From assembly GCA_024231855.1 (NCBI GenBank), contig JAAEQD010000180.1:1-64000 (forward strand): DNA of 64,000 bases, written 5' to 3'. The notes under the pieces were generated by a model, which did no database searches, was not told the origin of the DNA, and saw only the letters and a list, made by a program, of their open reading frames with translations. The position numbers and the translations under genes are program-made. Positions 26,732 to 42,872 of this stretch are shown piece after piece. Source of the DNA: Candidatus Zixiibacteriota bacterium. Its GTDB lineage: Bacteria > Zixibacteria > MSB-5A5 > UBA10806 > 4484-95. How positions within the stretch are numbered: position 1 is the stretch's first letter; every line of letters begins with the position of its first letter.

Positions 26732-26836
26732 TTACTAATGATTCTCACCGGAGCCGAAATGCCAGTTAGCCTGGCTATAAAAGGCGGTACCATGCGAAAG
26801 AATTTGAATCATTTATGCTTATATGAAGGAGGAGGA

Positions 26837-29800
26837 ATGAAGAAGTTTTGTTTTATCTTGACATGTTTTATTATCCTCACTTTTGCATTAAATACCGAAG
26901 TTCAAAGTAATTTATCCGAATTCGGAATGCCAAATATGCCAATTTCCTTCACCGAAAATATGGGTCAGTTCGGGGAGACAACGCTATTCAAAGCCGAAGC
27001 CAACGGTGTGGCTTTTTATTTCAGCCGCGATGAAGTTGCCTATCTGTTCGTTCGCAAAACAGATGTGCCGATTGAAGATGAATTATCTGTCGATAAGAGC
27101 CTGTCGGATGAACTCAAGCAACTTCGATATAAGCAAGAGTTATTACTGATAAAAGCGAAGTTTATAGGCGCTAACGAGCAAGCCGAAGTATCGGGAGAAG
27201 GGATACAGAACTACAAATACAACTACTTCCGCGGTAATGATCAGTCGAAGTGGCAAACAAATGTACCAAGTTACTCATCGATAGTTTATCACGATATTTA
27301 CCCGGGTATCGATTTGAAATACTACGGTAACGATAAGTCATTGAAATATGATTTCATTATCAAACCCGGCGCGGATGTTTCTCAAATCCAAATTCGCTAC
27401 GATGGAATCGATAATCTAGGCGTCACTCCATCCGGCGATCTCGAAATAAACACTTCGTTTGGCGAGATGCATGAAAAAGCACCGCGAATCTATCAGGATA
27501 TGAATGGTTTAAAAACTGAAGTATCCGGGCGGTATGAACTTAAGGAGCCGGGAGTTTTCGGTTTTGCTTTCGACGAAAGTTTTAATCCGGAAATCACACT
27601 AATTATCGATCCCGAACTGGCCTATAGCACTTTCCTGGGCGGAAGTTATCATGAGTATTGCAATGGTATTGAGCTGGATGAAAACGGTAATATGTACATT
27701 GCCGGTCATACCGGTTCGGATGATTTTCCTGTCGTTAATCCATACGATAGCAGCGCTAATGGTTCTGGTGATATTTTTGTATCTAAAATCTCAAGTGATG
27801 GTCAAACGCTTTTATTTAGCACATTTATCGGCGGCGGGAATGCTGAACATTGCTATGATGTCGTTATTAATTCATTGGGCGACATATGCCTTACCGGAAA
27901 GACACAATCATCAGATTATCCAATGGCTTATCCTTATCAGAGTATTTACGATGATGGTGATGTAAGCTCTTACGGAGATGCTTATATCACGGTATTATCA
28001 TCATCAGGGGATTCATTAGTATTCAGTTCATATTTGGGAGGTAATAGAGAAGATATAGGATATGGTATTGCTGTTAATGATTATAATGATATCTATATCA
28101 TCGGTTTTACAAAATCAAATGATTTCCCCACTGTAAATGCTTTTGATGATACTCGCAATGGATACAATGACGCATTTGTATCGAAGTTTTCGCCATATAC
28201 AGGCGGTTCCGAATGTCTTCTGATTAGTACTTACTTAGGTGGTAGCGATACGGAGAAAGGAAATGCTATAGAGATAGATGGCGACGAAAATATATACCTG
28301 GTGGGCGAAACTGATTCGGATGATTTTCCTGTTTCTTCTGATGCATTTGATACAACATTCGCAAACGATGATATTTTCATTACAAAAATGCCGCCCGATT
28401 TAGATTCTCTTATGTATAGCACTTATCTGGGAGGACTTGATGATGATCATGGTTACAGTATTGCGGTTGATAATAACGGATGCGCTTATTTAACCGGTTA
28501 TACTAATTCTACGGATTTCCCTTTGGTTACTCCTTACGATTCAACCAGAGTTAACAGAGAAGCATTTATATCTAAACTGTCGGCGGCCGGAGATAGCCTT
28601 CTTTATAGCACATTTTTGGGCGGTGAACATCGGGACAATGGCAAAAAAATAGCAGTAGATGAAAGCGGGCTGGTTTACATTACCGGTCAAACTCAGTCTA
28701 ATTACTATCCTTTAGTAAATTGTGATAACCCGGGTTTTTACAATGGCAGTATTATCTTAAGTGTACTTTCTACGCCCACGAATACTTTATGCTTCAGCGG
28801 CAGATTTGGCGGTTCAGATAGCGAATCCGGTACTGACATGGTTTTTGCCGATAACGGTGACCTTCTTATAACTGGACTGACCAAATCACCTGATTTTCCG
28901 TTGTTAAATCCCGTTGATGATGAAATTATAGAAGATTACTATGACGCTTTTGTTTCGAGATTCAATTTTGAAAGCTGGGAGCAGGTATCAGGGGTAATCA
29001 CCGGAGTAATAACGGATGAGTACGCGAATCCGGTGGAGGGAGTATTTGTTGAAGTTCAAGGTACATTTAATAATGATATCTCCAATGCCGATGGTGAGTA
29101 TTTAATCGAAGGAAATATCTTAAGCGCGTCCACTGTCTTTTTCAGCCACATCGATTTTTGCGATTCGGCTATTTATAATATCGAAGTAAATGAAAACGAG
29201 ACCACGTATGTTAATGTAGAATTGGCGATGAATGGATCTGTAAACGGTATAGTATACAATAATGCTTTGGATCCTTTGGAGGGGGCAGTCATATCGGCCT
29301 TTTGCACGGAGTATGAAAGCGTTTCGGATACTACTGATAGCTTCGGTCAATATCTGCTGAGTGGATTCTGCGCCGGTAATTATGATTTATCTCTTACGCG
29401 TTACGGCTGCAGAGATTCCACAATAAATGATATTGCGATTTCAGCGGGCGATACGACCACACTTGATATCGAGATAACGGTATTAGGCTCAATAGCCGGA
29501 TATGTAACCGATCCCGATGGCGAACCGATACCTGGTGTCCGGGTTAAATATAGAAGTTATCCTGATCCTATTCAATTCGCCGCTTATACTAATCAGCATG
29601 GTTTTTATCAAACTAATGGAATTGAACCGGGAACATATAACGGTGTAGTTTATCACAATAACAACTATATCGATACTACATGTGATGTGAATATTTTTCT
29701 TGAAGATACGACTGTGATAAATGTGACCTTACAACCTGTAACCGAATATGATGTCACTGTCTGGATAGGTAATCTGGATGAATCTCCGCTTATCGCGCCG

Positions 29801-30583
29801 ATTGGGCAGCAAATCGAATTTAATGTATATTTTCAAACTCAGGAGGATGTCGAGGTAGCCGATATGCACTACTCACTGGCTATTAACAATGCTTTCATTG
29901 ACTCGTTTCTAGTTGATAATTTCCAAATTCATTATCCATTGTCTTATTGGGATAGCAAATCTTTTGGCAACCCTGAGGAAGACTACGTGACCGATGACTC
30001 GGGATATACCTGGGATAGCTATATGTTTGTGGGTTTTGCGGAGCTCATGCCCCCTTATAATAGTCCGCTACTGCATACCGAACCCGGCGATCCACCAATT
30101 CTCGGATTAACATATGCCGTGAAAATTACTGACAATCATGAAATAAGCGGGCTAATAACTGATAACGCGCTGATGCCCGGGTGTCATTCAATTTATGGTC
30201 CAACCTGGATGGGTGATCCTCAAGGCGGCGATGGTTACAGCTACGAGCAGATTATTTCGACAATGCACCTTCTGGTTTTTCATTATTTCCCCGGGGATGC
30301 TAACATGGCCAAAGGTTTCTGGCCGCCCGAAGTTATAGGCGCGGATGCTACTTACCTGGCAAACTTTTTCAGGTCAGTAAACAGTCCTTGCTTGCTTGGC
30401 GCTTTTTACGCGTCAGCTGATATAAACGGTGATTGCCTTGTTATCGGCAGTGATGTAACCAGGTTCGTGCATTTCTTCAGGGGCGAGGTCGAAATGTCAT
30501 ATTGCCCCGATTACCCCTCGGCCTGGCCAACACCGGATGATCTGCCTGAAGAAGCGCCAACTGGCTGGCCCAACTGCGAATAA
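26837..30583 (+). CDS. Secreted SBBP beta-propeller protein with regulatory-like, cohesin-like and dockerin-like domains
   Basis: The frame is open from 26738, but the ATG at 26837 is the likely start. It follows GAAGGAGGAGGA and begins a typical signal peptide (MKKFCFILTCFIILTFA). Of 1248 residues, 30-260 form the FTENMGQFG domain and about 265-715 hold SBBP blades with STxLGGS and DFPxVNxxD repeats. Three regulatory-like Ig domains cover 718-968, the VTVWIGNLDESPL domain about 971-1145, and the dockerin-like module 1148 to the end (GWPNCE). It is the third member of the paralogue set at 13602 and 17147, although separated from them by three other genes. No enzyme motif seen. Confidence 0.82.
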   Translation: MKKFCFILTCFIILTFALNTEVQSNLSEFGMPNMPISFTENMGQFGETTLFKAEANGVAFYFSRDEVAYLFVRKTDVPIEDELSVDKSLSDELKQLRYKQELLLIKAKFIGANEQAEVSGEGIQNYKYNYFRGNDQSKWQTNVPSYSSIVYHDIYPGIDLKYYGNDKSLKYDFIIKPGADVSQIQIRYDGIDNLGVTPSGDLEINTSFGEMHEKAPRIYQDMNGLKTEVSGRYELKEPGVFGFAFDESFNPEITLIIDPELAYSTFLGGSYHEYCNGIELDENGNMYIAGHTGSDDFPVVNPYDSSANGSGDIFVSKISSDGQTLLFSTFIGGGNAEHCYDVVINSLGDICLTGKTQSSDYPMAYPYQSIYDDGDVSSYGDAYITVLSSSGDSLVFSSYLGGNREDIGYGIAVNDYNDIYIIGFTKSNDFPTVNAFDDTRNGYNDAFVSKFSPYTGGSECLLISTYLGGSDTEKGNAIEIDGDENIYLVGETDSDDFPVSSDAFDTTFANDDIFITKMPPDLDSLMYSTYLGGLDDDHGYSIAVDNNGCAYLTGYTNSTDFPLVTPYDSTRVNREAFISKLSAAGDSLLYSTFLGGEHRDNGKKIAVDESGLVYITGQTQSNYYPLVNCDNPGFYNGSIILSVLSTPTNTLCFSGRFGGSDSESGTDMVFADNGDLLITGLTKSPDFPLLNPVDDEIIEDYYDAFVSRFNFESWEQVSGVITGVITDEYANPVEGVFVEVQGTFNNDISNADGEYLIEGNILSASTVFFSHIDFCDSAIYNIEVNENETTYVNVELAMNGSVNGIVYNNALDPLEGAVISAFCTEYESVSDTTDSFGQYLLSGFCAGNYDLSLTRYGCRDSTINDIAISAGDTTTLDIEITVLGSIAGYVTDPDGEPIPGVRVKYRSYPDPIQFAAYTNQHGFYQTNGIEPGTYNGVVYHNNNYIDTTCDVNIFLEDTTVINVTLQPVTEYDVTVWIGNLDESPLIAPIGQQIEFNVYFQTQEDVEVADMHYSLAINNAFIDSFLVDNFQIHYPLSYWDSKSFGNPEEDYVTDDSGYTWDSYMFVGFAELMPPYNSPLLHTEPGDPPILGLTYAVKITDNHEISGLITDNALMPGCHSIYGPTWMGDPQGGDGYSYEQIISTMHLLVFHYFPGDANMAKGFWPPEVIGADATYLANFFRSVNSPCLLGAFYASADINGDCLVIGSDVTRFVHFFRGEVEMSYCPDYPSAWPTPDDLPEEAPTGWPNCE

Positions 30584-30713
30584 AAACCCGAAATAGCTGA
30601 AATCTGAATCGGTAACTTTAAAATAGTAATGCATAAACCATATAACTTATAGATATATAATATAATACAGGCGATACATAAAGAAGTACTATAAGCGTTT
30701 ATTCAATTCAATC

Positions 30714-30741
30714 TTGACAGATTTGGCATATGCGCTATATT
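30714..30741 (+). promoter_or_regulatory. Near-consensus sigma70 promoter
   Basis: TTGACA at 30714-30719, a 16-base spacer, and TATATT at 30736-30741, about 90 bases before the ATG at 30830. Confidence 0.65.
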
Positions 30742-30829
30742 AATTTTGTGAAGGTCTGTTTCTTCGCTTTTTTGATTTATTGAAAAGGACTGAAATTAAA
30801 TTAATCCGAAAGTGGTTTTGGACCGAAAT

Positions 30830-33508
30830 ATGAAGCGTTTTGTATCTGCTTACTTATTTACATTTTCTCTAATCCTGGCTGGTTTATCATTCGCCCAGGC
30901 TGATGATTGCCCGGGTTTGTTCACCCATTATACGACATATGTCGTAAATTCCAAGCCGATTTCCATTTTCAGCGAAGACCTTAATGGCGATGGCCATAAG
31001 GATATCGCCGTGGCCTGCCATTTCCGTGAATTCATGTCGGTCACTTTAAATAATGGCGATGGTACGTTCACCGACTTTGATTGGTCTTATGTGCCGTACT
31101 ATACCGAATGGCTGGATGGCGCCGATCTCGATGGCGATGACGATATCGATATAGTCACGGCCAATTCTCAGCATGGCAATGTTGCCGTACTTCTAAACAA
31201 CGGCGATGCCACTTTCGCCATGCGTCAGCTTTACACAACTTACGGTAATCCCAGGTCTGTATGCCTGGCAAAAATCGATGATGATGATGATATCGATATA
31301 GTCACGGCCAATTATTGGACCGGGCGAGTTTCCATATTGTTCAACAACGGCGACGGCACATTCGCCTCCTATGTCGATTACGTCGTCAACGGCGATCCCC
31401 GGGCGGTTTATGCCGCCGATCTTGATGGCGATGGGGATAACGATCTTATTACCGCCAATATGGATTCCAGCACGGTAACGGTCCTTCGAAATAACGGCTT
31501 GGGCGAATTCACCATCCGGGGAATACATCCAACCGGCCCCGAACCATTCATGGTCCAGGCAGCCGCCCTGGATGACGATGAACTACTGGACCTTGTTACG
31601 GTTAATACAGGCAACAATACGGTATCGGTGCTATTGAATACCGGCTACGGGGCTACCTTCGGTTCCCCAACCGGTTTCGATGTCGGCGTGGAACCCGTAT
31701 ACGTTACGACATTCGATGTTGATAAAGACGGCGATCTTGATCTGGCCACGTCAAACAGCGGCGATAGTACCGTCTCGGTACTGCTCAACGACGGCAATGC
31801 CGATTTCGACCATCGCACTTCATATTCGGTAGGAGTGAATCCGTATTCGATCGCGGTGGCCGATTTCGACAACGATAATGATCTCGATTTAGGCATAGCG
31901 CTTTTCATGTCCAACTATGTTTCGATACTCGATAATATTGATGCTGTACCGTTTACCGGTATCGTTTCCGGATCAATTACAAACAATCTGGCCGAACCGG
32001 TACAAGGCGCGCGCGTATTCGCCTCGGAGTCGCAGGTTGACGATACATCCCAGGCCAATGGAGATTATACGCTATCCGATGTCTGCGCCGCGACACAGGA
32101 TATTCACTTCACTCATCCTGATTTTTGCGATACCGTTGTGGAAGGGATTCGGGTCCCTGCTTTTGATATCTATAACATAGATATGGTTTTAAACTATAGA
32201 TCGATATATGGTCTTATCATCGATCCTGACTCAATTCCTATTGAGGGGGTTTATGTAGAAGTGTCCGGCGCTGATTTTAGTGATTCCTCGAATTCCACGG
32301 GTGAGTATCATCTTGGAGGGCTCGGTCCGGGCCCGCACGATATTTCGTTTTTTCATCCTCATTTCGGAGACACCTCGATAACAGATGTTGCCGCGCCTTT
32401 GAATGATACGACTATTATAGATTTGCAAATGCAGCCTCGAGGTTTCATTAAAGGCAGAGTCACCGATCAATCAGCCTTACCGCTCGAATACATATTTGTA
32501 GAGGCAATCGGCGCTTCGGTGGATGATTCAACTGATGAGGATGGCAATTATCTTCTCAACTATCTCAACGCCGGTACTTGCAATATTCGTTTCAGCAATA
32601 CATATTATTATAATATAACCCTGGCGGATATTTCAGTCTTACCCGGCGATACGACCACCGTCGATATCACGTTGATTAGACGACCCGATATTGAACTCTG
32701 GTATGGTACAGTCTTTTGTGATCCCATAATCGGCATGATTGATTCGCAACTCGGTATTGATCTCTATCTGCAAACCGCCGGCGATATTCAAATCCAGTCC
32801 GCCGGTTTTATCCTGGCCGCGGATGAATCTTATATCAATAGCCTTGTTGGTGAATCGATGGGAGAATTCTTCTATCCTTTCACGGCGATGGATCAGGCCG
32901 GCTTTTCGCCGCCCCTGGGTTCGCCGCCTAATCAATCGGGCTGGACAAGCCAGGCGTTTTCCGCCCAAACGTCGATTGAGCAAAGCCCCTGGTTCAATTT
33001 CGATAGCCCGATGCTGGTGGCTCGTTTCGTTGTCGAAGTAGTTGATGATACATCAATAGTCGGCGATACCGTTAGCTGTCTTTCAGGCGGTGTAAATGAG
33101 CTTGGCGATTCTTCATCCGTTTTCACATTTGAGGATATACCGTTGACTTTGACCGAGCATTTCTGCCAATTGGCAATTACGGATGGCTATCCTTATCTGC
33201 CCGGTGATGTCAATATGTTCAACGGCGCCTGGCCACCTGTGATCATCGGCGGGGATGTCACCTACCTGGTTAACTATTTCAGGCTTCTACCGTCATCCCA
33301 GCCATGTCTGCTCGATGGTTTCTGGGCATCGGCTGATGCCAACGGCGATTGTTTGGTAATCGGCAGCGATGTGACCAGGCTGGTAAACTTCTTCCGAAGC
33401 CTGGGCGAGATCGTGTATTGCCCCGATTACACCCCGCTCTGGCCCTCGCCCGACGATATCCCAACAATCGCGCCAATTAACTGGCCCAACTGCGATATAG
33501 CCAGATAA
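30830..33508 (+). CDS. Secreted FG-GAP/VCBS propeller protein with regulatory-like and dockerin-like domains
   Basis: The frame is open from a GTG at 30812. The ATG at 30830 starts the signal peptide (MKRFVSAYLFTFSLILAG), so I prefer it. Of 892 residues, about 30-370 carry FG-GAP/VCBS-type blades with calcium-loop-like DLDGDGDNDL, DDDDDIDIV and NNGDGTF motifs. Three regulatory-like Ig domains follow (377-617). A diverged version of the pre-module domain begins at about 619 (IELWYGTVFCDP). The dockerin-like module runs from about 786 and ends GWPNC plus DIAR. It is GC-richer than its neighbours by eye. Integrin-like propellers of this type usually mediate binding; no catalytic site visible. 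Confidence 0.82.
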   Translation: MKRFVSAYLFTFSLILAGLSFAQADDCPGLFTHYTTYVVNSKPISIFSEDLNGDGHKDIAVACHFREFMSVTLNNGDGTFTDFDWSYVPYYTEWLDGADLDGDDDIDIVTANSQHGNVAVLLNNGDATFAMRQLYTTYGNPRSVCLAKIDDDDDIDIVTANYWTGRVSILFNNGDGTFASYVDYVVNGDPRAVYAADLDGDGDNDLITANMDSSTVTVLRNNGLGEFTIRGIHPTGPEPFMVQAAALDDDELLDLVTVNTGNNTVSVLLNTGYGATFGSPTGFDVGVEPVYVTTFDVDKDGDLDLATSNSGDSTVSVLLNDGNADFDHRTSYSVGVNPYSIAVADFDNDNDLDLGIALFMSNYVSILDNIDAVPFTGIVSGSITNNLAEPVQGARVFASESQVDDTSQANGDYTLSDVCAATQDIHFTHPDFCDTVVEGIRVPAFDIYNIDMVLNYRSIYGLIIDPDSIPIEGVYVEVSGADFSDSSNSTGEYHLGGLGPGPHDISFFHPHFGDTSITDVAAPLNDTTIIDLQMQPRGFIKGRVTDQSALPLEYIFVEAIGASVDDSTDEDGNYLLNYLNAGTCNIRFSNTYYYNITLADISVLPGDTTTVDITLIRRPDIELWYGTVFCDPIIGMIDSQLGIDLYLQTAGDIQIQSAGFILAADESYINSLVGESMGEFFYPFTAMDQAGFSPPLGSPPNQSGWTSQAFSAQTSIEQSPWFNFDSPMLVARFVVEVVDDTSIVGDTVSCLSGGVNELGDSSSVFTFEDIPLTLTEHFCQLAITDGYPYLPGDVNMFNGAWPPVIIGGDVTYLVNYFRLLPSSQPCLLDGFWASADANGDCLVIGSDVTRLVNFFRSLGEIVYCPDYTPLWPSPDDIPTIAPINWPNCDIAR

Positions 33509-34187: not shown

Positions 34188-37100
34188 TCATTTTTCAAAT
34201 TTATCATATAATTCTTTTAGGAAGAAACTACCTTTTTTTGCATAAGCTTCACAAATCCTAACAGCATCAGATCTATTGCCATTCTCAAATAGAAATTTTA
34301 CTAATTCCTCTATATGTTCCTTTTTAAAATCTGGAAGATAAGTTTTTGACATCACCAGGAATATTTTCCCTACAAATTCTGAAATTTTCTTCTTATCTCC
34401 ATTATCCTTGATAATGTTTAATTTTTTAATGAAGCGGGGCTCATTCCAGTTAGTGTGAATATAAGGGGCTGATAATAGCAGCATTTTATAATACTTTTCG
34501 TCTATTACATCTATCAAATCCAAGAAATTTGCGGTATCCGCCAATAACTTTTTATCATCAATTGTAAATTTGTCAGGGTCTTCATCCTTATATTTATCAT
34601 AGATTAATTCCCAAAATTTGAGTATTCGATTCAAAATATCTTTATCATTTTCTTTAACTAATTCACGTTCTTTTATTGCATAGCCTTCCCTCCTGAATGA
34701 ACTTAAGATATGTTCAATTATTTCATAATTCCAATTCTTTATTAGTTCGCCGAACAAACCTTTTAGGTCAAACTTATCAAAACCGGTCAAATGGCTCAAA
34801 ATATATCCTACAGATATATGGTCGGATAGTAATTCCCTAAATTCATCGTCCGTCTTTTTTAAAGACAATGCTCTTGTATAATGATCTGTCATAAAACGAT
34901 ATGAACCAGTATTCTGGCGACATCCAAATAAATATCCATACATGAATGCGTACCATAATGATTCATCCTTCAATTCTTTGAAGTATTTTATCTTTTTCAT
35001 TGTCCAAACGCTATCAATGAAACTAAGATTTGGGAAAAATTGTCCTATTATCGTATAAGCCTCCGGGATATTGTTGTCCAAACAGCTGTCATACAAAATT
35101 TTAAGCTCATCATCCATTAGTGGTTTTAGACTTTTATCTTTAATCCCAGCAACTCTTAATCTGCGTAATTCCAAATAAACAATCGCGGATAACGAACAAC
35201 CATAAGCTGTATTTAAAGCTTCTGCAACTGGATTATTATGAGCTTCAGTTTTCTTCATATCCTGTGAATTTATTGCAATAATAAGAATTTCCTTCAATAT
35301 ATCGTAATACTCCAAAGGTATAGCCCAATTATCGTCTGTACATCCGTCTCTTATCAACCATCCAATAGTTTGAATAATCCATTTATTGTTAGCATCCCTT
35401 TCAGACTCGCCTTGTGTTAATTTATTATTCTTGAATTCATCTTGAGATATATACAGTTTTATAAAGGTCAATAGTTTTTCCCAATTTATTTGCTTTTTTT
35501 CATTAAATGCGTCTCTTATCGCCAAAAAAGCATGGTAATTATAATAATAATTAACTTTTACAAATTGCTCAATATTGTCTATTAGTAATTCCGGATTATC
35601 TTTCACAATCTCTTGAAAAGCTTCTGCCAAACCTGCTGTAGTTGGTCCTTTCCAAGGATGTTCAGTTTTAAATGAATTGAAGTAATCTATTAGTGTACCA
35701 TCTTCCAATTTTGTTATTATCTCATCTTTTGTTAAAGGGGATGGGCCAGATCCTATTTTAACAGCTCGTTCTCTAAACATGTATTCTTCTTCTATTTTTG
35801 TTTCTTCTTTTAAGTCAATATAGAGTTTTTTAAAATGTTCATCTGATTTTAACGAAGAATACCATTTCTGACGCCAGTATTTCTTTGCTTTTTCTATTTC
35901 ATGGCTATCAATATCTTTTAATCTCTTGGCGAATGATAGCGATTCTATAATTCCTTCTAGTTTTCCTTTTTCTGCATTGCTAAAAGAATGTATATTGCTT
36001 TCAAGAAGAGAGTAAACTTCGGCTTCGTAATGTAAATTGCTAAAAATTTGTTCTTTGAAAGGGCCTTCAATTAATTCCCAAAATCGGGTTTTATACTTAT
36101 TCCAACCTACATCACATATATATAAAACAAATCTTATAAATATTGCATAATGATATTTTTTGCCCAGAAAATCTCTTATTACTTCATCAAAATTACTGTC
36201 TTCCGCTGGATTTTGTACCTTTGCCCTAATAATTTCTTTAGCTATATCAACTAATGTATCAAGGGGCTCATCTTTATATCCCCCAATTCTATTTCTAAGT
36301 GATTTTACCCATAAATAAGAATGATCAAAAATAATTTCGTTATAAAGATTAAATGGGTCAATATCCTGCAATTTTGATTTAATGTCTTCTAAAAGCACAT
36401 TGTTGCTAAGTTCATCTATAAAAAACAAGCCAAAATCGGCAATTTCATTGCATCTTTTAACAGATTTATAACTTCCGATATTTTCAAATTCTTTAGTACT
36501 ATTTGCCAACTTCCTAATTGAAGCAATACAATAATTGTCTGAATCAAATTCAAACTCTATTTGATATTTAGTTCCATTGGAGGATTCTTCTATTGCTTTG
36601 CTTGGGAATTTCTTGCTAAATATGCTGCTTAGTAAATCTGAAATATTATAAATAGGTTTCATTGAACATAATTGACCTATTTTAAAGGCATTTTTATTAT
36701 CTATTAGTGAATCGCCCAACCAATGCGTATCTATAATAGTATTAAAATCTTTAGTGCTCGAAATATATGGTGATTTTTCTTTTTCATCATCTGAAATCCA
36801 TTTTATTTTTATTACTTCATTAAAAATGAATTCTGCTTTTTCTTTATCCTCATTTGTTGAATTATCAGGAAGAAACTTAGGTAATAATTTATTTGTTATT
36901 TCAGCATCAGCTAATGAAAAGTTAAATCTAGTTTCCAACCAGTCTGGTATAAATTTCAATATATCTATTCCAATTTTCTCATTTGGTAGATTACATATAA
37001 TTTTTACAAAATACCACCATGTCCGCGGATTATCAGTCCTTTCGCCTTTATCATTTCTAAACTTTGTAACATTTCTAACTATTTCTAAAAGTTCATCAAC

Positions 37101-37406
37101 ATATTGCTCACTTTTTGGCTCATTTGATTTTTTAGATACATGTTCAAGATAAGGAAGTACGTTCCATTCAGGTATAACGAATCCATCTTGATCTAAAGCA
37201 GGTAGAGGCCCTGGCGCATTATAAGGATCGAAATAGCCTTTTTCTTTTAAAAAATGGAACCATCTAGAGTCACTGATAGAATTTAGAAACAAATTTGACA
37301 AAGCATTATCGATCAGTAAAATTTCTAATTCTTGAACAATTGATTCTGAATAGCCTGCTTCAACTATCCTTTCTATTTTGTCAAATTTATCAAAAAAATC
37401 ACTCAT
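34188..37406 (-). CDS. Large helical protein, partner of SIR2 protein (candidate defence gene)
   Basis: This 1072-residue protein has no signal peptide or transmembrane segment and is very AT-rich, with many Lys, Asn, Ile and Glu codons. The sequence looks almost wholly alpha-helical, in the style of HEAT/ARM-like solenoids. Notable segments are WFHFLKEKGYFDPYNAPGP near the N-terminus and PRTWWYFVKIICNLP around 128-142. No Walker A/B, HNH, PD-(D/E)xK or protease motif was found. Its ATG lies inside the 3-prime end of the SIR2 gene (8-base overlap, ATGAGTGA), which implies translational coupling and a shared role. It may be the sensor, scaffold or oligomerisation partner of the NADase. Relationship to DUF4020 or to the C-terminal region of DSR2-like proteins is possible but unverified. 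Confidence 0.8.
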   Translation of the reverse strand: MSDFFDKFDKIERIVEAGYSESIVQELEILLIDNALSNLFLNSISDSRWFHFLKEKGYFDPYNAPGPLPALDQDGFVIPEWNVLPYLEHVSKKSNEPKSEQYVDELLEIVRNVTKFRNDKGERTDNPRTWWYFVKIICNLPNEKIGIDILKFIPDWLETRFNFSLADAEITNKLLPKFLPDNSTNEDKEKAEFIFNEVIKIKWISDDEKEKSPYISSTKDFNTIIDTHWLGDSLIDNKNAFKIGQLCSMKPIYNISDLLSSIFSKKFPSKAIEESSNGTKYQIEFEFDSDNYCIASIRKLANSTKEFENIGSYKSVKRCNEIADFGLFFIDELSNNVLLEDIKSKLQDIDPFNLYNEIIFDHSYLWVKSLRNRIGGYKDEPLDTLVDIAKEIIRAKVQNPAEDSNFDEVIRDFLGKKYHYAIFIRFVLYICDVGWNKYKTRFWELIEGPFKEQIFSNLHYEAEVYSLLESNIHSFSNAEKGKLEGIIESLSFAKRLKDIDSHEIEKAKKYWRQKWYSSLKSDEHFKKLYIDLKEETKIEEEYMFRERAVKIGSGPSPLTKDEIITKLEDGTLIDYFNSFKTEHPWKGPTTAGLAEAFQEIVKDNPELLIDNIEQFVKVNYYYNYHAFLAIRDAFNEKKQINWEKLLTFIKLYISQDEFKNNKLTQGESERDANNKWIIQTIGWLIRDGCTDDNWAIPLEYYDILKEILIIAINSQDMKKTEAHNNPVAEALNTAYGCSLSAIVYLELRRLRVAGIKDKSLKPLMDDELKILYDSCLDNNIPEAYTIIGQFFPNLSFIDSVWTMKKIKYFKELKDESLWYAFMYGYLFGCRQNTGSYRFMTDHYTRALSLKKTDDEFRELLSDHISVGYILSHLTGFDKFDLKGLFGELIKNWNYEIIEHILSSFRREGYAIKERELVKENDKDILNRILKFWELIYDKYKDEDPDKFTIDDKKLLADTANFLDLIDVIDEKYYKMLLLSAPYIHTNWNEPRFIKKLNIIKDNGDKKKISEFVGKIFLVMSKTYLPDFKKEHIEELVKFLFENGNRSDAVRICEAYAKKGSFFLKELYDKFEK

Positions 37407-38433
37407 TTGTAATTCCCTGTTTAATAAAACTTAAATAATGAAATAGTTTTTCTATAAAAATATGTTTACCTTTATCGTATATAACTGGATAAATACCAAT
37501 TTTTTCAAATGAGTTAAAGAAATCAATATCTGTTGTATCATTTTTTCCAATTAGTAAAAAATGCTTTCTTTGATATGACTTGTTTTCTTTCCCATGTTCC
37601 CGGTAAAAGGTTCTAGTTTTTTCAAAATCATTTTTTATTTCGAAGGCAATATCTGTAATACATTTTTTAACAAATCTGTCTTCAAAACTGAAACCAATGA
37701 AGATGATATGTTTATTAAGATAAATTCTCTTTAATAGATCTAATATTTGTTTGGATCCTGTTTTATCATAAAAATTCTCATAATCTTTTGTCCTTAATAT
37801 AAATAGATTCTTGTTTATATCTGCATGCAAATAATACAATTGATCAACTTCGCTTTTAGGCTCTATATTTAAATCGTCTAAATATCTTTTAACTAAGTTC
37901 ATATCTTTACTATTATTTGTTAATGTAGCGAAATATTCGATGAATTTATATGCTTCCTCAATTGATGTGTCAAAATTTGTAGTTAGATGGCATTTAATAG
38001 CTAATATTACTTTAACTAATGTAATAGATGTGCTTGAAATTTCCTGTTCCATATGTTCTTTTATTGTTCCGAAAAACAACTCATCATTTCCCATCGCGCG
38101 GTATTCTTCAAATATCTCATCAGCAATGTCAGGATAATTATGAGGATTAGAATTTTCGAAGTCATTGTATTTTTCAATAAATGATTCGCTACATTTTGCT
38201 ATCATTTTCTTTATTAATTTTTTCCAATCACTTATACCCAATGGCTTAGACAATCCAGCCCCAATAAAAGCAGCGAAATTTTCATATTCACCTTTATAAT
38301 TATTAATAAGATCGTTCAGATTCTTCTCAGAACGATTAAAAATATCACCGCTTGCGCTTAAAAAACTTGAGAGCTGGTCAACTTTTTTCTTATTGGGCAA
38401 TTTTTCGGTTGTTATATTGTCTATGGTAACCAT
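37399..38433 (-). CDS. SIR2-domain protein, probable NAD-depleting defence effector
   Basis: This 344-residue cytoplasmic protein has a SIR2-like NAD-binding core: GAGLSKPLG at 58-66, SDWKKL at 68-73, TTNFD at 151-155, a candidate catalytic His in LHAD (about 203) and IFIGFSFED at 244-252. The TTN(F/Y)D and FxGxSFxD signatures are those of prokaryotic defence SIR2 proteins (Thoeris ThsA, DSR and SIR2-HerA types). Those act as NADases during phage infection. They are not the signatures of classical zinc-ribbon deacetylases; the zinc-binding Cys pairs are absent. It is the first gene of a two-gene operon and strongly AT-rich compared with its neighbours, suggesting horizontal acquisition. No Argonaute, HerA or TIR gene lies beside it in the window. 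Confidence 0.85.
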   Translation of the reverse strand: MVTIDNITTEKLPNKKKVDQLSSFLSASGDIFNRSEKNLNDLINNYKGEYENFAAFIGAGLSKPLGISDWKKLIKKMIAKCSESFIEKYNDFENSNPHNYPDIADEIFEEYRAMGNDELFFGTIKEHMEQEISSTSITLVKVILAIKCHLTTNFDTSIEEAYKFIEYFATLTNNSKDMNLVKRYLDDLNIEPKSEVDQLYYLHADINKNLFILRTKDYENFYDKTGSKQILDLLKRIYLNKHIIFIGFSFEDRFVKKCITDIAFEIKNDFEKTRTFYREHGKENKSYQRKHFLLIGKNDTTDIDFFNSFEKIGIYPVIYDKGKHIFIEKLFHYLSFIKQGITNE

Positions 38434-41858: not shown

Positions 41859-42872
41859 ATGGGGATAATCATGTTTACAACTAGATTCGCAATAATCATT
41901 GTAATTCTTTCCGGATTATTAATGTTCGATGTTTCGTGTAAAAGTGATGATAAGCTTGCTGATGCTCTTGAGGAGGCATGGGAATTTAAGAATGCCGGAG
42001 AATTTGAACAAGCTGAGAAAGCCTATAAAAGGGCAATTAGTATTTCAAGAAAAAAATATGGTAGTGATAATACTAGAGAGGCTGATTATTTATGTATTCT
42101 AGGTATGATGTATGTTGAAAACGGTAGGATTGAGGAAGGTGAAATCGTACTGCATAAATCATTAAACATTTTCAAAGATAAGGGTAAAACTGATGATCAT
42201 ATTGCTTTATTGGCTTTAAATTCATTAGCTATAGCATATAAAATGGGAGAAAAATATACTGAAGCAGAATCGCTTTTCACATATCTAATCAATAATAATA
42301 ATTATAATTCAGTGATGTGTAATAAACCAATAATTCATAGTAATTTATTGTATTTATTGGCTGAAACTAACATCTACCTCGGTAGAATGCCTAGGGCTGA
42401 ATCATTGCTATTAGATTATACTTCTAGTTATACTAATAGTCCTTATCGTGATATTGATGATTTGCTATATGCTTATCTTTATTTAGCTAATTTATATGGT
42501 GAGCAAAGCAGGTATTCTGAACTTGAACAAATTATGACGGAACTCATAAATATAGCTGATTCTGTTTATAATGATGATAATACCCAAAAAATTCACTATA
42601 GGCTATACATGAGTATGATCTGTGAAAGGTTTTACGATACAAATAAGGCAGATTCAATTTATTACAATACTATAGAATTACTTAAACAAGTATATGGAAA
42701 TGATCCCGAGGGAATCGCTCAGATTTGCGAATATTTAGAAGCATCATACAAAAAGCAAGACATGAAAGATAAAGCGTCGATTTTCGCTCAAAAGGCAATA
42801 AATATAAGATCTGCAATAGAGCAAGACTCAATCCCGAATCCTGATGACCTTAACCTATATATTAACCGCTAA
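41859..42872 (+). CDS. TPR-repeat protein, possible lipoprotein
   Basis: This 337-residue protein has an N-terminal hydrophobic segment ending LLMFDVSC. That may be an atypical lipobox (Asp at -3 is unusual), so it is either a lipoprotein or a cleaved or uncleaved signal. The rest is helical with tetratricopeptide repeats, clear at about 35-100 (EAWEFKNAGEFEQAEKAYKRAI) and continuing to about 320. It is distinctly AT-rich between GC-richer murJ and the heptosyltransferase, which may mean recent insertion. An alternative ATG at 41871 has GGGGA better placed upstream. TPR domains mediate protein-protein contacts; the partner is unknown. Confidence 0.75.
   Translation: MGIIMFTTRFAIIIVILSGLLMFDVSCKSDDKLADALEEAWEFKNAGEFEQAEKAYKRAISISRKKYGSDNTREADYLCILGMMYVENGRIEEGEIVLHKSLNIFKDKGKTDDHIALLALNSLAIAYKMGEKYTEAESLFTYLINNNNYNSVMCNKPIIHSNLLYLLAETNIYLGRMPRAESLLLDYTSSYTNSPYRDIDDLLYAYLYLANLYGEQSRYSELEQIMTELINIADSVYNDDNTQKIHYRLYMSMICERFYDTNKADSIYYNTIELLKQVYGNDPEGIAQICEYLEASYKKQDMKDKASIFAQKAINIRSAIEQDSIPNPDDLNLYINR

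Follow-up and report, generated by a model that had tools for sequence, protein, structure and literature searches.

A probable split DSR1-like defense system in which the SIR2 subunit appears to be exchangeable

The window analyzed here, a 64,000-nucleotide stretch of contig JAAEQD010000180.1 from a Candidatus Zixiibacteriota bacterium, carries two overlapping genes on the minus strand. One (37399–38433) encodes a 344-residue SIR2-type effector, and the other (34188–37406) encodes a 1072-residue partner, called the sensor here after its proposed role. The open reading frames overlap by 8 nt, ATGAGTGA (37399–37406, minus strand), a segment that holds the sensor start and the SIR2 stop as expected for translational coupling, and a purine-rich AGGGA lies upstream of it. 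The positions, lengths, and strand of both frames and the 8-base overlap agree with an earlier note on this DNA, as does the description of the operon as AT-rich: the GC content of the pair is about 25–34% compared to mostly 43–57% on either side. Low GC alone is not unique to the pair because a second AT-rich stretch lies at ~41.8–42.7 kb. That stretch (41859–42872; ~29–35% GC) encodes a TPR-like protein and is located between murJ and a glycosyltransferase-like gene. Promoter and terminator scans returned chance level only, and an Rfam search was empty.

A small membrane protein gene lies downstream of the pair, and a ferredoxin gene, a geranylgeranyl-reductase-like gene, and then rpsT and murJ lie upstream. 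These names come from reading the sequence, and the homologues and their order were partly checked. The neighbors are housekeeping genes, as had been claimed, with no defense island. The ferredoxin-reductase-rpsT-murJ block is kept in two of three genomes of the same family that lack the pair; an exact empty site was not found in these genomes, and the DNA upstream of the block is rearranged. Elsewhere in the window, positions 26738–33508 encode two large proteins that look secreted; they have SBBP-like or FG-GAP-like repeats and share a dockerin-like C-terminal motif (PGDVNM...GSDVT.LVNFFR).

The 344-residue protein matches Pfam SIR2_2 (9e-16) and has all of the SIR2 motifs previously read from it, GAGLS, TTNFD, LHAD, and FIGFSFED. 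Motif alignment places the catalytic Asn and His at N153 and H203, and these residues are conserved among the SIR2 proteins of the related loci described below. The protein is a predicted NADase. It reads LHAD, with HA following the histidine, where nearly all of the others have LHG, and its activity could be altered by this difference. One of the coupled SIR2 genes at a related locus (L022, 6148–6993) has HIRG where the catalytic LHG is expected, and its product is possibly inactive or altered. The window genome has no second copy of this SIR2 and has two other SIR2 genes. One (L003, G000:C163, 538–1761) is a stand-alone SIR2-like gene of 407 residues upstream of a panC-like gene, and it weakly matches all three Dsr1 models in their SIR2 part. 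The other (L005, G000:C128, 1423–3585, in a frame of about 1100 residues) encodes one protein in which a probable NB-ARC/STAND ATPase region comes after a SIR2 domain, and it is reminiscent of Avs5-like proteins.

In PADLOC, the window SIR2 is nearest to ThsA (4e-20), ThsA also provides its best sequence matches in the PDB, and the match to the SIR2 part of Dsr1 is weaker (8e-10). Two other SIR2 proteins from split pairs match the N-terminal part of Dsr1 at about 1e-57. The resemblance to ThsA raises a Thoeris-like alternative, that a nucleotide second messenger switches on the SIR2 and that the large protein makes or relays this messenger. However, the ThsA match covers the SIR2 part only, and at 344 residues the protein is too short for a C-terminal SLOG messenger-binding domain. 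Neither protein of the pair has a SLOG or TIR family match in Pfam or PADLOC, and the partner is a Dsr1 solenoid with no matched enzyme domain. We regard the Thoeris-like arrangement as very unlikely.

The sensor has no Pfam or NCBIfam match, and the earlier note had described it as helical without recognizable catalytic motifs. It does belong to a recognizable family. The protein corresponds to the C-terminal part of PADLOC Dsr1, matching the whole non-SIR2 part of model PDLC04166 with an E value of 2e-114 over profile positions 290–549 and 561–1225 of 1227. Where the two proteins match the Dsr1 model places the gene split between about positions 211 and 290. The other two Dsr1 models, PDLC04167 and PDLC02183, did not match the sensor directly. 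The sensor profile was therefore compared by hhalign to conventional single-gene Dsr1 proteins from the same phylum (1190, 1178, and 1201 residues) that match PDLC04167/PDLC02183. The alignment had a probability of 99.5% and an E value of 1.4e-22 over 812 columns, nearly the whole sensor, and two of these fused proteins also match PDLC04166 in their C-terminal part. These profile comparisons identify the sensor as a homologue of Dsr1 minus its SIR2 domain. Neither protein of the pair matched the PADLOC Dsr2 model at E values up to 1, which by sequence makes DSR1, not DSR2, the relative of the pair. The pair had been proposed as a new system with the architecture of a split DSR2-like protein. 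The layout of a split DSR protein holds, but DSR2 as the sequence relative does not, and the pair is not a wholly new system since its large protein is a relative of a catalogued one, recognizable in the PADLOC Dsr1 model. The earlier caveat that the pair might already be catalogued is in this part borne out.

Structure prediction of the sensor gave a mean pLDDT of 84.5 and a pTM of 0.53, and the model is nearly all helical with one beta-rich insert, modeled at about residues 268–317. The model matched importin/HEAT-type solenoids, not DSR2, and a HEAT-like alpha solenoid is the predicted fold of the sensor. PDB searches with the sensor sequence and profile returned nothing meaningful, and no solved structure matched the profile of the sensor family. 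For the fused relative L021, a single-chain prediction was made (residues 1–1200; pLDDT 88.5), and the 34 best Foldseek matches of this model in the PDB are DSR2 chains with E values from 7e-10, followed by ThsA and KomBC matching the SIR2 part. The TM-scores to DSR2 are low, about 0.2–0.25, so the match supports the architecture only and not the detailed shape. The expected SIR2-plus-solenoid layout of DSR2 is borne out at this level of fold in the fused homologue. Sensor conservation is highest across residues 50–200. The most conserved segment, at about residues 50–180 (36867–37257, minus strand), comes directly after the SIR2 junction of the fused forms, and eight of the nine invariant sensor columns fall at residues 81–179. 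This segment is a candidate coupling or hub segment. The beta-rich insert, at about residues 268–350 (36357–36605, minus strand) from predicted strands and insert lengths, is a candidate variable recognition element. Its occurrence is patchy: 9 of 36 sensors have a long version of the region, and the rest lack it.

The sensor alignment was used to scan one genome per species across 84,980 species. The scan found 37 sensor loci, all of which (37/37) have an adjacent SIR2 gene or domain. This pairing was not favored by the scan because the search patterns lie in the sensor. The SIR2 is a separate gene in 34 loci and fused in three (L012, L018, and L021), and each of the fused proteins is a clear Dsr1 that matches the model end to end. 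The two frames of the window are not a chance pair, and the neighborhood conservation, together with the predicted helical solenoid, upholds the proposal of a SIR2 NADase-like effector conserved with a helical partner. The set was enlarged with the window and a pair on a Vibrio coralliilyticus plasmid, counting one record that was found twice only once. In the enlarged set, 36 of 39 related loci are split and three are fused, a predominance that applies to this sample and not to all Dsr1 because sequences without the chosen motifs escape the scan. The genes overlap in 29 of the 36 split pairs, by exactly 4 or 8 nt in 22. The two-gene form is therefore common among the sampled loci, a point that the earlier note had missed. 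At L029, L032, and L045, decay or sequencing errors have split the sensor gene into two or three frames.

The hosts of the related loci belong to many bacterial phyla and to two archaeal phyla, Promethearchaeota and Thermoproteota. Within the phylum of the window, 4 of 133 genomes carry the sensor, and the distribution of the pair is patchy. Several related loci have defense genes as neighbors, given here as a plain tally over these loci: type I restriction-modification genes at L016, L022, L028, and L043, a type IV methyl-directed enzyme at L042, a HEPN protein at L028, a Schlafen-type protein at L013, and a DrmD-like helicase at L034. In L016 and L028, the pair comes immediately after hsdS, a specificity gene of type I restriction, and looks like part of one operon with it. 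Searches of phages and viral contigs with the sensor, and of phages with the window SIR2, found no relatives, so mobility by phage is not supported. The earlier reading of the window pair as acquired defense genes is supported as probable.

The sensor and SIR2 trees agree in one half (18 rows) and strongly disagree in the other half, which includes the window. The disagreement is evident in four pairs of sister sensors. The sensors of L019 and L032 are 73% identical and their SIR2 proteins 29%; the corresponding values are 67% and 21% for L023/L030, 59% and 18% for L021/L029, and 51% and 24% for L014/L016. The window SIR2 groups with those of L029, L031, and L017, apart from the common SIR2 type, and appears to belong to one of the replaced types, which is closer to ThsA than to the SIR2 usual in Dsr1. 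AU test p-values are only a guide here because the SIR2 types were defined after the tree had been seen and some SIR2 rows lie on long branches; the raw identities are the stronger evidence. With this reading, holding each sister-sensor pair together in the SIR2 tree was rejected for L019/L032 (p = 3e-99), L021/L029 (p = 1e-4), L023/L030 (p = 0.006), and L014/L016 (p = 0.005). Holding SIR2 relatives together in the sensor tree was likewise rejected for L019/L021 (p = 2e-5) and for window/L029/L031/L017 (p = 1e-4). Placing the eight SIR2 types on the sensor tree requires at least 12 changes.

Exchange could be mimicked by fast SIR2 evolution or by misassembled metagenome contigs, with the SIR2 simply co-evolving with the sensor; most of the loci are metagenome-assembled, and the long SIR2 branches point the same way. 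Against an artifact, identity falls sharply at the SIR2-sensor gene boundary in the four sister pairs, and in other pairs conservation of the SIR2 equals or exceeds that of the sensor. The SIR2 proteins of L019 and L021 are 50% identical even though their sensors are not sisters, and the AU tests reject co-inheritance in both trees. We give the artifact only a slim chance. These comparisons indicate that the SIR2 and the sensor have different histories, and that across many microbes the SIR2 half was repeatedly swapped for a highly dissimilar one, with the sensor half retained. Having its own gene, the effector can be replaced as a unit. Fusion or splitting also occurred within a SIR2 type, since L021 is fused and L019 is split with the same type of SIR2.

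The closest known system is DSR1 (defense-associated sirtuin 1; PDLC04166/04167/02183), in which, as in the pair, the SIR2 precedes the sensor region; the two sensor regions are homologous from end to end. DSR1 is one polypeptide, whereas the window has two frames with an 8-nt overlap and a SIR2 type that appears to differ from the usual one. DSR2 shares the architecture of a SIR2 and a long alpha solenoid, and provides the best PDB matches of the fused homologue, but it consists of one chain of about 1,000 residues. Thoeris ThsA has the most similar SIR2 catalytic module by profile. However, Thoeris combines a SIR2-SLOG ThsA with a TIR ThsB, and the window pair has neither SLOG nor ThsB, and has a solenoid partner instead. 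SIR2-HerA (Nezha), Kongming KomBC, and Avs5 also use a SIR2 NADase effector, and in the first two the SIR2 and its partner are on separate chains as in the pair. Their partners are a HerA ATPase and a nucleotide-processing protein, respectively, and Avs5 has a STAND ATPase on the same chain, whereas the window partner has no Pfam match to any of these.

Dsr1 homology, pairing, the SIR2 catalytic residues, and effector exchange, all read from sequence, suggest that the pair is quite probably a split DSR1-like anti-phage system in which a phage-triggered solenoid sensor switches on a SIR2 NADase. DSR2 is an inactive tetramer that is switched on by a phage tail-tube protein binding its middle and C-terminal domains (PMC11087589). 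Homology and architecture make DSR2-like switching logic the most likely for the pair, in which the SIR2 would form its own subunit. The solenoid protein, equivalent to Dsr1 without the SIR2 domain, would keep the separately made SIR2 inactive and would recognize a phage product as DSR2 does the tail-tube protein. A shape change or assembly would then turn on the NADase, and depletion of NAD+ would stop phage multiplication. Complex formation, the phage trigger, and NAD+ depletion are the inferred parts of this scheme. The separate effector gene would be replaceable as a unit, and in this lineage it appears to have been replaced by the ThsA-resembling type. DSR1 is reported to stop phage without cell death, unlike the DSR2 outcome (PMC10952713), and abortive infection should not be assumed for the pair.

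A guard or antitoxin-like arrangement would predict the same strict pairing and translational coupling. The solenoid would constitutively inhibit a toxic SIR2 NADase, and the toxin would be freed when a phage interferes with the solenoid by degradation or sequestration, not when a trigger binds it directly. We consider this unlikely: the effector-first gene order and the natural fusions are more in keeping with an allosteric switch than with a degradable antitoxin, and DSR2, the precedent, is bound directly by a phage protein (PMC11087589). The triggered DSR1-like switch is the preferred reading.

DSR1 has so far been treated as a single-gene system (PMC10973363), and a search of the open-licence literature found no description of a two-gene DSR1. 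As far as that literature shows, the common split form and the exchangeable SIR2 subunit are new. Annotation tools that use a fused Dsr1 model could list the sensor gene alone and miss the separate SIR2. The natural two-gene form means that sensor and effector can be expressed, purified, and mixed separately, and the natural swaps, such as the 73% identical sensors with 29% identical SIR2 proteins, are ready-made experiments on how the sensor controls the SIR2 and on specificity. A broader reading, which we put forward tentatively and at somewhat less than even chances, is that the Dsr1 solenoid serves as a general sensor and works with at least eight interchangeable, separately encoded SIR2 types docked at the conserved N-terminal segment, with gain and loss of the beta insert varying target recognition. 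If this is true, DSR1 would represent one fused version within an immune family of bacteria and archaea that swaps its effectors and mostly uses two genes.
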